DNA of 64,000 nt from Streptomyces sp. NBC_01217 (GTDB lineage Bacteria; Actinomycetota; Actinomycetes; Streptomycetales; Streptomycetaceae): NCBI RefSeq assembly GCF_035994185.1, contig NZ_CP108538.1, positions 496,001 through 560,000 of the forward strand, in the 5' to 3' direction. This document shows positions 48,344 to 58,754 of this stretch, piece after piece (the stretch's first letter is position 1; every line of letters starts with the position of its first letter). A model generated the notes under the pieces. That model had not been told where the DNA came from and ran no database searches. It saw nothing but the letters and a program-made list of their open reading frames with translations. The translations under genes and the position numbers were made by a program.

Positions 48344-49867
48344 ATGACCCGTTACGCTGCACCGGGCACCGAGGGCGCCATCGTCTCGTACGAGTCCCGC
48401 TACGACCACTGGATCGGCGGCGCGTACGTCCCGCCCGCCCGTGGCCAGTACTTCGAGAACCCCAGCCCCGTCAATGGCCGCCCCTTCACCGAGATCGCCC
48501 GCGGCAGCGCCGAGGACATCGAGGCGGCCCTGGACGCGGCACACGCCGCGGCCCCCGCTTGGGGAGCCACCGCGGCGGGCGACCGCGCCTCGGTCCTCAA
48601 CAGGATCGCCGACCGGATGGAGGCTCATCTGGAGGAGCTGGCGGTCGCCGAGAGCTGGGACAACGGCAAGCCCGTACGGGAGACCCTGGCCGCCGACATC
48701 CCCCTGGCCATCGACCACTTCCGCTACTTCGCCGGTGCGCTGCGCGCCCAGGAGGGCTCGCTCAGCGAGCTCGACGACGACACGGTCGCGTACCACTTCC
48801 ATGAGCCGCTGGGTGTCGTCGCGCAGATCATCCCGTGGAACTTCCCCATCCTGATGGCGACCTGGAAGCTGGCCCCGGCGCTCGCGGCGGGCAACGCGGT
48901 GGTCCTCAAACCGGCCGAACAGACCCCGGCCTCCATCCACGTCTGGCTGAAACTGGTGGCCGATCTCCTGCCGCCCGGCGTCGTCAACATCGTCAACGGC
49001 TTCGGCGCGGAGGCCGGCAAGCCCCTCGCCTCCAGCCCGCGCGTCGCGAAGATCGCTTTCACCGGTGAGACCACGACGGGGCGGCTGATCATGCAGTACG
49101 CCTCCGAGAACATCAAGCCGGTGACGCTGGAGCTGGGCGGCAAGTCGCCGAACATCTTCTTCGACGACGTGTGGAGCGCGGACGACGACTTCCGCGACAA
49201 GGCCCTCGAAGGCTTCACCATGTTCGCCCTCAACCAGGGCGAGGTCTGCACCTGCCCGTCGCGCGCACTGATCCAGCGCGGCCACTACAGCGAATTCCTG
49301 GAGGCGGGCATCGCCCGCACCGAGAAGATCGCGCCGGGACACCCGCTGGACACGGACACGATGATCGGCGCCCAGGCCTCCAACGACCAGTTGCAGAAGA
49401 TCCTTTCGTACCTGGACATCGGCCAGCAGGAGGGCGCGAAGGTCCTCACGGGTGGTCAGAGGGTCGAGTACGACGGGGAGTTGGCGGGCGGCTACTACGT
49501 CCAGCCGACCATCTTCGAGGGCGACAACCGGATGCGGGTCTTCCAGGAGGAGATCTTCGGCCCGGTGGTGGCGGTCACCTCCTTCTCGGACTTCGACGAC
49601 GCGATCCGTACGGCGAACGACACTCTGTACGGCCTCGGGGCGGGCGTATGGACCCGCGACATGAACACCGCGTACCGGGCGGGCCGTGCCATCCAGGCGG
49701 GCAGGGTCTGGACGAACTGTTACCACGCGTACCCGGCCCATGCCGCGTTCGGCGGGTACAAGCAGTCCGGGATCGGCCGAGAGAACCACAAGATGATGCT
49801 GGAGCACTACCAGCAGACGAAGAATCTTCTGGTGTCGTACTCGCCGAAGAAGCTGGGCTTCTTCTAG
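48344..49867 (+). CDS. NAD-dependent aldehyde dehydrogenase (ExaC/AldB type)
   Basis: 507 residues from ATG 48344. Cofactor motif FTGETTTGR, catalytic Glu in LELGGKSPN and catalytic Cys in NQGEVCTCPSR; this CTC context fits the acetaldehyde/ExaC-type enzymes. C-terminal KNLLVSYSPKKLGFF is complete. It oxidises acetaldehyde or similar aldehydes to acids in alcohol catabolism. Regulated by the upstream GAF protein. The last 54 bp coincide with a direct repeat that recurs at 58.7 kb, suggesting an integration site in its 3' end. Confidence 0.95.
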   Translation: MTRYAAPGTEGAIVSYESRYDHWIGGAYVPPARGQYFENPSPVNGRPFTEIARGSAEDIEAALDAAHAAAPAWGATAAGDRASVLNRIADRMEAHLEELAVAESWDNGKPVRETLAADIPLAIDHFRYFAGALRAQEGSLSELDDDTVAYHFHEPLGVVAQIIPWNFPILMATWKLAPALAAGNAVVLKPAEQTPASIHVWLKLVADLLPPGVVNIVNGFGAEAGKPLASSPRVAKIAFTGETTTGRLIMQYASENIKPVTLELGGKSPNIFFDDVWSADDDFRDKALEGFTMFALNQGEVCTCPSRALIQRGHYSEFLEAGIARTEKIAPGHPLDTDTMIGAQASNDQLQKILSYLDIGQQEGAKVLTGGQRVEYDGELAGGYYVQPTIFEGDNRMRVFQEEIFGPVVAVTSFSDFDDAIRTANDTLYGLGAGVWTRDMNTAYRAGRAIQAGRVWTNCYHAYPAHAAFGGYKQSGIGRENHKMMLEHYQQTKNLLVSYSPKKLGFF

Positions 49868-49872
49868 GCGCA
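49814..49872. repeat. Left direct repeat, candidate attL
   Basis: 59 bp covering the end of the aldehyde dehydrogenase gene and 5 bp beyond it; 57 of 59 positions equal 58696-58754. The identical cores are 26 bp and 29 bp, split by two mismatches (49840, 49843). The only integrase-like gene in the window is just inside it. Confidence 0.75.
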
Positions 49873-49877
49873 CGAAA

Positions 49878-49917
49878 AAAGGCGCCTGACCTGGTCTTTC
49901 ACCCGTCAGGCGCCTTT
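49878..49917 (+). terminator. Terminator of the aldehyde dehydrogenase
   Basis: AAAGGCGCCTGAC pairs with GTCAGGCGCCTTT (49878-49890 with 49905-49917) around a 14-nt loop, just after the stop at 49867. Confidence 0.85.
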
Positions 49918-50029
49918 CCCTCAGCTTGCTCTCGGCCGAGCCCGGCTTGCGTGCTAACTCCCAGTTCCTCCCACACCTGTACCGCTCCTGACCAGTACTT
50001 CCGGACCAGTCACGGACCAAACCCACGCT

Positions 50030-56757: not shown

Positions 56758-58046
56758 CAACGGGTACGGCTACGGGGGGCGGCGAAGACGGCCAGCCGCA
56801 GCACGGCGAAGCGCACGCAGGTGACCGCGGCGGAGGCCGTGGCGAGGACCGCGGTCTCCGCGGCCGGTGAGGCACCGGGATCGAGCCACTTGAACCACAG
56901 CACCGCCGCGGACGTGACCAGATAGCCGAGGACGAACAAACCCCCAGCGCCGAGGTGCGCACGTGCGGGCGCAGTGGTGGAGTGCCGGAAGGTGAGGCGG
57001 CGGTTCGCCTCGGTGTTGAGGACGGTGAGGCCGAACAGCGAGATCAGGTTGGCGACGGCCGGAGACCACCAGCCACGCATCAACCAGTACAGCAAGGCCT
57101 GTCCGGCCGTTGAGACGACACCGATCGCGAGGAAACAGCCGACCTCCCACGACAGCACACCGCGTCCGGTGGAAGGGGCAAGGACGGCGTCGGGGTGTTC
57201 GGCGGCCGGCTCGGGGCGCGGCCGCACCTCGGCCCGGGCGTCGCCGGACGCCTTGAGCCGCGCCATGCGCCACAGGCCCCGCAGGTCTTCCTTGGCGGTG
57301 CGCGCCACATCCACCCGGGTGTCGACGTCCTCGACCCAGTCGACCGGGACCTCATGAATACGCAGTCCGTTGTGCTCGGCGAGCAGGAGCATTTCGGTGT
57401 CGAAAAACCATGCGTCGTCCCGGGTCACCTTCAGCAGCGGCCGGAGTACCTCCGTACGGGCCGCCTTGAATCCGCACTGGGCGTCGGTGAAGCGGACTCC
57501 GTGGGTGAGCCGGATGATGCCGTTGTAGCAGCGGGAGATGAACTCGCGACGCGGCCCGCGCACCGTGCGTGCGCCGGGAGCCAGCCGGGAGCCGATCGCG
57601 ATGTCCGAGTGGCCGCTGGCCAGGGGCGCGATCAGCGGGAGCAGTCCGTCGAGGCCGGTGGAGAGGTCCACGTCCATGTACGCCACGATGTCCGCGTCGC
57701 TGGCGCCCCAGACGGTGCGCAGCGCGAGTCCGCGGCCCTTGCGGTCCAGGTGGACGACGCCGACACCGGGCAGCTCGTCCGCGAGGCGGCGGGCGGTGGC
57801 GAGGGTTTCGTCGGTGCTGGCGTTGTCGGCGACGGTGATCCGCCAGGGGAAGGGGAAGTCCTGGCACAGGCGGGCGTGGAGCGTGCGCAGGCAGCCGGGC
57901 AGTGCTCGCTCCTCGTTGTAGACCGGAACGACGATGTCCACCGTCGCGGTACCGGCGTGCGGGAGAAGCGAACGTTCGACTGGTTGGAAGGGGGCGGGAC
58001 GCTCCACGTGGGCGGCGAGTTCGGTGAGGTGGGGGGTGGGAGTCAT
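56757..58046 (-). CDS. GT2 polyprenyl-phosphate glycosyltransferase fused to GtrA domain
   Basis: 429 residues from ATG 58046. GT2 domain (about 35-275): DIVVPVYNEERALPG, VADNASTDETLATA, DADIVAYMDVDLSTG (catalytic DxD-like) and FTDAQCGFKA. The C-terminal 130 residues are a four-helix GtrA-type domain (GCFLAIGVVSTAGQALLYW, ANLISLFGLTVLNTEANRR). It makes polyprenyl-phosphate sugar and may flip it for the following GT39 enzyme. First gene of the operon. Confidence 0.93.
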   Translation of the reverse strand: MTPTPHLTELAAHVERPAPFQPVERSLLPHAGTATVDIVVPVYNEERALPGCLRTLHARLCQDFPFPWRITVADNASTDETLATARRLADELPGVGVVHLDRKGRGLALRTVWGASDADIVAYMDVDLSTGLDGLLPLIAPLASGHSDIAIGSRLAPGARTVRGPRREFISRCYNGIIRLTHGVRFTDAQCGFKAARTEVLRPLLKVTRDDAWFFDTEMLLLAEHNGLRIHEVPVDWVEDVDTRVDVARTAKEDLRGLWRMARLKASGDARAEVRPRPEPAAEHPDAVLAPSTGRGVLSWEVGCFLAIGVVSTAGQALLYWLMRGWWSPAVANLISLFGLTVLNTEANRRLTFRHSTTAPARAHLGAGGLFVLGYLVTSAAVLWFKWLDPGASPAAETAVLATASAAVTCVRFAVLRLAVFAAPRSRTR

Positions 58047-58692
58047 GGCTTCCTCAGGCATGAGGGGACGGCAGACTGCGGCTGACAGGCCCTGGTCCAG
58101 GGCCGCGGGCCTCACTGTCGCCCTCTCGCCTGTGGGAGCCGGGGGAGAATACCGAAAACTGACGGAGAGTCAGCTCATTGGCCGATCCTGGGCGAACACC
58201 TCGGAACTGCTCATCGACGTCGCCATCGACGAGGCGGTTCGGTCTATCGTCAGGCCGCGTGGTCACGGTGTGTCCCGCGAAGCGGCGCAGGGCCGTTTCA
58301 GCCGTCACTTCACGGGCCCGGCGCCCACCTCGACAGCAGGAGACGTCCTCCAGCCGGTGGCGCTCACCCGTCTCGGCGCAGGCGAGAGTGCCAGGGGTCA
58401 GTGACGGATCGGCGCCGGCACGGTCCGACTCATGCGCGCCTCGATCGTGCAGGCGGATGCGGAGGGCGCTGAAGCGCACCTGAAACGTGTGTCCCCGGCG
58501 GGGTGCGTACGCGGGGCTGGACCGCCAGCACGCCTTCCGGGCAAGGCCGGCCATGCGCGCCTCGGACGAGCGGAGTGGCTCCGTCGACATCGGCCCCCGA
58601 TCAAGATCCGGACCATTCCCGGGTCGACAAGCCGCTCCCCGCTTCGGTTGAGACTGTTTCCGCTGGTCAACCGCCTACTTACCCTGTACCAC
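58047..58692. other. Non-coding right end of the element
   Basis: About 650 bp between the first gene of the glycosyltransferase operon and the right repeat. It should carry the operon promoter (reading leftward). No open frame on either strand looks like a protein. It may hold debris of the element's right end. Confidence 0.5.
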
Positions 58693-58749
58693 CAACAGAC
58701 GAAGAATCTTCTGGTGTCGTATTCACCGAAGAAGCTGGGCTTCTTCTAG
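58693..58749 (+). pseudogene. Orphan 3' end of the aldehyde dehydrogenase
   Basis: Codes for QQTKNLLVSYSPKKLGFF then TAG, exactly the last 18 residues of the aldehyde dehydrogenase at 48344-49867. The upstream DNA has no further homology. It is the displaced chromosomal gene end expected on the far side of an element integrated in that gene. Confidence 0.85.
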
Positions 58750-58754
58750 GCGCA
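58696..58754. repeat. Right direct repeat, candidate attR
   Basis: Matches 49814-49872 at 57 of 59 positions, in the same orientation. A similar GGCGCCTGAC terminator follows both copies, so homology extends a little beyond, in degenerate form. Confidence 0.75.

Follow-up and report, generated by a model that had tools for sequence, protein, structure and literature searches.

A decayed genomic island at the 3' end of exaC in Streptomyces, and the probable tRNA-Tyr ancestry of its integrase lineage

The 64,000-nt stretch of Streptomyces sp. NBC_01217 analyzed here (the window; C1:496001-560000 of a 9.03-Mb genome) contains an intact aldehyde dehydrogenase gene, exaC, and, 8.9 kb further on, an orphan copy of the 3' end of that gene. 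We consider it very probable that the segment is a decayed genomic island at the exaC 3' end, and that it came from an exaC-dedicated integrase lineage that switched once from tRNA-Tyr by way of a look-alike core. Under this explanation the 8.9-kb segment would occupy the first attachment (att) site of a tandem array, having been inserted by a tyrosine integrase that recombines a putative 7-bp overlap, CGAAGAA, inside exaC. The island would have brought its own copy of the last ~20 codons with a terminator, rebuilding exaC while the displaced end became the orphan at the far side, and repeated use of the site would have left the array. Insertion of an IS3 element and a deletion would then have stripped away the excisionase-like partner and most of the integrase. 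The lineage would descend from integrases that use tRNA-Tyr with a crossover at the anticodon loop, with a single switch to exaC, whose QQTKNLL codons spell a near-identical core (GCAGA, 7 nt, TCTGC). We infer the order of these events, and the causal role given to the core likeness, from the comparisons described below.

The exaC gene (48344-49867, + strand) encodes 507 aa and matches NCBIfam NF050026 (AcaldDHExaC) at 951 bits (cut-off 900). Its 3' end is the left member of the top direct repeat in the window as found by a repeat search (49806-49878 and 58688-58760, 73 nt, 93% identity). The original prediction, made from the DNA letters alone, described two 59-bp repeats in the same orientation, identical at 57 positions, with the true end of the dehydrogenase on the left. 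Both statements hold, with two differences counted between 49814-49872 and 58696-58754. The left copy (attL, 49806-49872, + strand) is copy 1 of the array, and the orphan on the right (attR, 58688-58754, + strand; proposed overlap at 58700-58706) is copy 2. Each is followed on the + strand by a terminator (49876-49918 and 58757-58799), and the two terminators form a second repeat family with 77% identity, the right one being also detected as an inverted repeat. The left terminator is probably element-borne, as attL copies of related integrases have similar terminators. The right copy had been called an orphan 18-codon gene end with its own terminator; the orphan and its terminator are borne out, while tblastn gives 20-26 codons, all of them the last codons of exaC.

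A search of the whole genome gave four copies of the exaC end, at C1:545806, 554688, 561368 and 565471, with successive spacings of 8.9, 6.7 and 4.1 kb. Copies 3 (C1:561368-561430; position 7368 of locus L006) and 4 (C1:565471-565542; L006:11471) lie outside the window. Copy 4 has both halves of the repeat. In copy 3 identity starts 2 bp before the proposed overlap, with unrelated sequence on the left, and it is perhaps a secondary-site or deletion junction. Among 295 genomes of the genus, with three candidate places scored per genome, at least 236 contain an exaC-type att match at E <= 0.001.

A truncated integrase sits ~160 bp inside the left repeat copy (50033-50461, - strand), where the original prediction had placed a tyrosine recombinase remnant. 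The C-terminal 143 residues are present (50030-50461) and the N-terminal two thirds are missing. The remnant matches the PHROG family phrog_1 ("integrase") at 4.9e-10 and aligns with 87% identity to an intact 464-aa relative (L009), which itself matches phrog_1 at 7.2e-28, so that its identification stands. Pfam and NCBIfam returned no match for the remnant, as a longer slice also showed: Pfam PF00589 reached 17.8-24.7 bits (cut-off 27.1) in three of four relatives and matched neither L009 nor the remnant, and a PDB sequence search gave weak matches to unrelated proteins only. With an AlphaFold model of another relative (L191; pLDDT 75.6, pTM 0.48, of moderate confidence and with a weak C-terminal part), Foldseek returned Tn1549 Int, XerH, Cre and lambda Int (best E 2.9e-6, TMt 0.52). 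The catalytic pattern of tyrosine recombinases is R...R...Y. When the family was aligned, R273 was nearly invariant and R399 and Y431 were invariant, with a tyrosine at the first histidine position of HxxR; the remnant is without the first arginine. By profile and fold, the family is a tyrosine recombinase (phage-type integrase). A second, tiny integrase remnant follows copy 4 (C1:565701-565782) and is closer to a different clade than that of the copy-1 remnant. Searches of phage records gave seven weak matches, none spanning 80% of the integrase; plasmid records gave nine, four of which span 80%, one of these at exaC-type identity. Four plasmid matches (H1, H5, H6 and H8) are exaC-type integrases or pieces of them, 72-90% identical, carried by large Streptomyces replicons that are recorded as plasmids; there they are unannotated or called hypothetical protein.

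Evidence for a dedicated lineage comes from where the relatives of the remnant are found. When the 295 genomes were searched, at least 39 had a match of at least 63% identity, among the matches listed. The 30 best-matching loci, one of them in the window, were compared, and 28 have an exaC att copy of at least 62 bp no more than 250 bp from the integrase. Twenty-four of these copies are at the end of exaC itself, matched over 429-444 aa (the locus edge cuts the match), and four are at an orphan or short piece. The two exceptions have a 29-bp match (L018) or none (L020). Uninterrupted integrases of 463-487 aa are present in 14 of the 30, a longer frame in L034 being uncounted. A second, named set was drawn from 84,980 species genomes scanned with the family alignment, and 80 of 366 loci were kept. 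Identity to L009 divides this set into two groups, with a gap between 57.4% and 67.6%. In the upper group (>=67.6%), 34 of 35 integrases adjoin an exaC att site (26 with exaC itself) and none adjoins tRNA-Tyr; the remaining locus, L226, has neither site within 800 bp, where other open frames are present. In the lower group (<=57.4%), none of 45 adjoins exaC, 38 adjoin tRNA-Tyr and seven adjoin neither. Without the 12 loci repeated from the first set (six per group) the counts are 28/29 for exaC and 34/39 for tRNA-Tyr. Nearly all named relatives are from Streptomyces; L217, beside exaC, is from Kitasatospora. The original prediction had put forward a check of other genomes for elements and recombinases directly after this gene, and in both sets integrases at that place are common. 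Sister integrases from the 295 genomes (20 loci) have tRNA-Tyr beside them in 17 cases and an exaC att copy in none, while 19 loci of more distant integrases divide into eight with tRNA-Tyr, seven with tRNA-Arg and four with no detected tRNA. The tRNA-Arg gene is within ~230 bp of the integrase in four of those seven and 0.8-1.7 kb away in three. SLP1 is a tRNA-Tyr-specific element, and an SLP1-like identity was considered for the window island and rejected: the attB of the window island is not in a tRNA gene, and a tRNA search found none in the window or in L008-L037.

We then aligned 46 att copies, 14 linked to exaC and 32 orphan, leaving out weak matches in L099 and L102-L106. At the third column of the repeat (counted after dropping four of the 32 orphans, which are without the left half) all 14 exaC-linked copies have T and 27 of 28 orphans have C. 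The sequence GGTCA precedes 23 of the 32 orphans and none of the 14 exaC genes. Terminators apparently track the integrase clade, and therefore the island is the probable source of the gene end and terminator wherever exaC is occupied. Carriage of the target 3' end by the island, with an orphan end at the far side, is the mark of a gene-restoring genomic island, and it is what we observe. The central proposal of the original prediction, a decayed integrative element in a protein-gene 3' end that the incoming DNA restores, is supported by these orphan arms and by the association of integrase with exaC. Cargo differs between islands. From exaC to further same-strand copies the distance is ~6 to >300 kb, of which the long spans may cover several events. 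Among the matches listed for 21 genomes, a list cut off before the weak PF01580 ones, no FtsK/SpoIIIE (PF01580) or TrwC (PF08751) protein is encoded between same-strand exaC copies, other relaxase families not having been searched, and because of this exaC islands are not recognizable actinomycete integrative and conjugative elements (AICEs). An assignment of the window segment to the integrative and conjugative elements (ICEs), AICEs included, was rejected on the same ground.

A tree was built from those 52 of 69 integrases that are 430 aa or longer. The 15 exaC rows form a single clade (support 100/100), nested in a larger clade (100/99) together with 16 tRNA-Tyr rows and three unassigned rows; seven further tRNA-Tyr rows fall outside. 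One change from tRNA-Tyr to exaC would be the most economical history of this pattern.

A comparison of the two target sites suggests how such a change could have occurred. The anticodon arm of tRNA-Tyr reads GCAGA-CTGTAAA-TCTGC. Of 12 tRNA-Tyr island loci (20 kb each), nine hold orphan 3' parts of tRNA-Tyr, ten copies in all. In nine copies identity starts where the anticodon loop does, at tRNA position 31-33, and in the tenth at position 24, with mismatches; this points to the loop CTGTAAA, between the GCAGA and TCTGC arms, as the probable overlap. The end of exaC reads GCAGA-CGAAGAA-TCTGC in four of 14 exaC genes (G055, G273, G108 and G004), and the proposed core in the window is GCAGA-CGAAGAA-TCTTC (49813-49829, + strand; pattern match at C1:545813-545829), with the putative overlap at 49818-49824. 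Compared with the 18-nt tRNA arm, the 14 exaC sites have 14 matches in four cases, 13 in five, 12 in four and 11 in one. In the window's genome, the pattern GCAGACNNNNAAYCTKC matches nothing but tRNA-Tyr, one scar and copies 1 and 4 of the exaC end. Away from exaC, at C1:6809925 on the minus strand (L169), 28 bp resemble an island end (TACCACCAGCAGACGAAGAACCTGCTGG) and diverge directly after the core; this looks like an off-target scar. Taken alone, the core likeness is modest evidence. We judge it likely that a tRNA-specific integrase lineage was retargeted once because conserved codons of exaC spell the anticodon arm, and that islands then captured the last codons and a terminator, giving a genus-wide hot spot.

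Motifs on both sides of the core bear on the same question. Between att and int, the motif YGAYCAG could be scored in 13 of 15 exaC rows and 22 of 23 tRNA-Tyr rows, the others having no core string in the 330 bp scanned. In the exaC loci it is at +170/171 from the overlap in 11, at +181 in one and absent in one; in the tRNA-Tyr loci it is at +170 in five, +179 to 181 in nine, +190 in one and absent in seven. The window copy, TGACCAG, is at +171 from the proposed overlap (49989-49995, + strand). On the left, GGTC is at -35/-36 in 22 of 32 exaC orphans, in copy 2 GGTCA (58665-58669, + strand) is at -35 relative to its proposed overlap, and GGTC or GGCT is at -25 in seven of ten tRNA orphans. The steps in spacing are about one helical turn. 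These motifs are candidate integrase arm sites, and they place CGAAGAA near the anticodon-loop position of the relatives independently of the core likeness. A gene for a 65-aa HTH_17-type protein (26.3-27.9 bits, cut-off 27) lies directly upstream of int and overlaps its start (for example at L083:3485-3682, L084:16194-16391 and L086:3473-3670). Where the int frame is long, 14 of 15 exaC loci and all 19 sister loci have this gene, as do 27 of 35 upper-group and 43 of 45 lower-group named loci; none was found in the window. Its product is a probable excisionase. The genes near int common to 13 elements are the integrase, frames overlapping it and this small gene. As the motif and the excisionase-like gene are shared, the exaC and tRNA-Tyr groups have one integration module in common.

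Inside the window the order is copy 1, integrase piece, IS3 element, two-component/glycosyltransferase operon, copy 2. The IS3-family element (50816-52111, + strand) has imperfect inverted-repeat ends (26 nt, 88% complementary), orfA at 50883-51188 and orfB from 51185, the first piece of which matches NF033516 at 215 bits (cut-off 160). No target duplication was seen in the flanks inspected. The original prediction made no mention of this element. This copy is probably inactive because of an in-frame TAG in orfB (51836-51838). The cargo genes, all on the - strand, encode a sensor histidine kinase (52156-53892, start unrefined; HisKA, HATPase_c, HAMP), a response regulator (53691-54434; Response_reg 4.6e-28, Trans_reg_C 1.4e-25), a 758-aa membrane mannosyltransferase-like protein (54484-56760; PMT_2, YkcB_C) and, from a domain search, a GT2 glycosyltransferase of up to 452 aa with a GtrA-like membrane domain (56757-58115). 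The operon moves as one block: four genomes have it at differing locations with 86-92% identity (window 52116-58185; L289, L292, L293, L294).

Could this cargo be ordinary chromosome bracketed by island insertions or rearrangements, so that 49873-58687 was never one mobile unit? We regard this as unlikely, though it is the alternative that survives best. The block 52116-58185 does occur as a unit in five genomes (G068, G011, G024, G180 and G262) with no exaC att copy in the 20-35 kb around it, and the remnants at copies 1 and 4, being of different integrase clades, imply several layered events. Against this, the block is patchy: at E <= 1e-100 relatives of it occur in 18 of 295 genomes, counting that of the window; in G104 (locus L289) it is present at 87% identity 2.1 kb after an orphan exaC end, and in G262 a diverged block (71-76%) begins ~27 kb beyond one. 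The original prediction would have been refuted by relatives with this operon in place but neither repeats nor recombinase. L289 goes halfway, since the 20 kb examined around the operon gave no recombinase, yet its nearby orphan end fits decay at the same hot spot.

It is less likely still that chance explains the resemblance of the exaC core to the tRNA-Tyr arm, the account of the islands and integrase otherwise holding, with specificity changed by mutation or domain exchange and exaC one of many sites. Perfect arms (GCAGA-N7-TCTGC) recur at least 3-17 times per genome in 12 genomes, for which reason the likeness without its position is weak. Five of the 14 exaC sites have no more than 11-12 of the 18 positions in common with the arm, and among 20,000 random 62-nt stretches 3.1% reach at least 11 (a null from open reading frame 3' ends was unused, as exaC itself contaminated it). 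But four exaC sites reach 14 matches, a value found in none of the random stretches (at least 12 in 0.64%, at least 13 in 0.16%), and the likeness falls where the motifs on both sides put the core. As for a partial tandem duplication of the gene or a homologous-recombination scar, with the integrase fragment there by chance, the window alone displays just two gene ends and a broken recombinase, but the genus-wide association of one integrase family with one gene end (34/35 and 28/30 loci) contradicts it and leaves it a negligible probability; tandem duplication, named beforehand as a refuting case, is ruled out by the orphans examined, of ~20 codons, which hold the last codons only, most preceded by the element's left arm, which exaC does not have.

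Besides the recurrence of perfect arms and the poorer exaC matches, a number of points weigh against the history of an exaC island with a tRNA-Tyr-derived integrase. Recombination itself is deduced from sequence, and the crossover is placed within CGAAGAA by deduction, not mapped to a base. The core in the window matches the tRNA arm at 13 of 18 positions, having TCTTC and not TCTGC, and the pattern GCAGACNNNNAAYCTKC was composed after both sites were known. Seven of 22 tRNA-Tyr loci have no right motif, 10 of 32 exaC orphans do not have the left one at -35/-36, and several islands are without a clean attR. The root of the tree rests on the tRNA-Arg outgroup, in which three of seven rows have their tRNA 0.8-1.7 kb off. 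The GC content of the segment's parts (0.67-0.70) is not distinct from that of the window (0.696) and is uninformative as an island mark. An allelic empty site for the window island was not found, including via relatives of the 918-aa protein of the right flank, and a close relative joining 49872 to 58755 was not obtained. In the right-flank comparison, among the matches listed, L109-L111 match only from inside the 918-aa gene onward, and L108 is a contig edge. That gene lies to the right of copy 2 (58895-61651), and the DNA likeness of L109-L111 begins ~1 kb inside its 3' end.

Why integrases favor tRNA genes, and by what route they come to abandon them, has long been asked, and the exaC lineage may offer an unusually clear record of a move off a tRNA gene and onto a protein gene. 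Both kinds of site still have users in one genus, with related cores and motif spacing, making the proposed switch testable by swaps of a few bases. If the explanation is right, protein-gene attachment sites elsewhere may be discoverable by scanning for tRNA-arm look-alikes. It would also account for a hot spot whose integrase falls below Pfam cut-offs, and exaC is a further possible integration site for Streptomyces engineering.

As an element class, the exaC island is ordinary. The suggestion in the original prediction that a protein-coding 3' end is an unfamiliar target class was overstated, since protein-gene sites are already known in Streptomyces: the PAISt/TR islands of plant-pathogenic species use bacA and aviX1 (PMC4057263, PMC10711302), and in the accessible portion of one Streptomyces population study there are 14 such sites (PMC9513070). 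Protein-gene sites make up 43.4% of mapped islands in another survey (PMC12424338). Several islands in one site are likewise known, as far as the available passages of these papers go (PMC3218068, PMC10711302, PMC4482086, PMC12884075, PMC8371274, PMC10111431, PMC9513070, PMC4057263, PMC12424338). In the open PMC subset, we found no exaC or aldehyde dehydrogenase attachment site and no retargeting from tRNA-Tyr to exaC, although supplements or the TIGER/Islander table may list such islands; the exaC site and the route to it are thus unmatched in the literature searched.

The PAISt/TR islands resemble the exaC islands in using a protein-gene 3' end, in orphan copies of the gene end and in tandem modules (PMC4057263, PMC10711302), and PAISt further in a tyrosine recombinase missed by Pfam and in relatives with eroded integrase and att sites (PMC4057263). 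They differ in their target genes, with the core TTCATGAA at bacA, and they are ICEs or integrative and mobilizable elements, several with transfer functions; the text seen of both papers describes no tRNA look-alike (PMC4057263, PMC10711302). AICEs of Actinobacteria share a site-specific integrase adjoining att and tandem insertion, but according to the sections available, those with tyrosine recombinases overwhelmingly use tRNA genes and carry FtsK/SpoIIIE-type transfer proteins (PMC3218068). Islands targeting dusA or prophage late genes also have integrase clades with a protein-gene site particular to each, in other genes and other hosts, and the excerpts of those reports describe no anticodon-arm likeness (PMC4482086, PMC10111431). 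In the accessible part of one of them, an integrase subclade directed otherwise at a protein gene includes a tRNA site (PMC10111431), and in the text seen of another paper the canonical core corresponds to the anticodon loop and stem (PMC8371274).

The tRNA-Tyr islands of Streptomyces are unlike the exaC islands in their attB, which is the tRNA-Tyr anticodon loop. In the rest the two agree: their integrases are ~50-60% identical, the layout is the same, the int stop is 152-260 bp from the overlap, and both have the flanking motifs and the excisionase-like gene.

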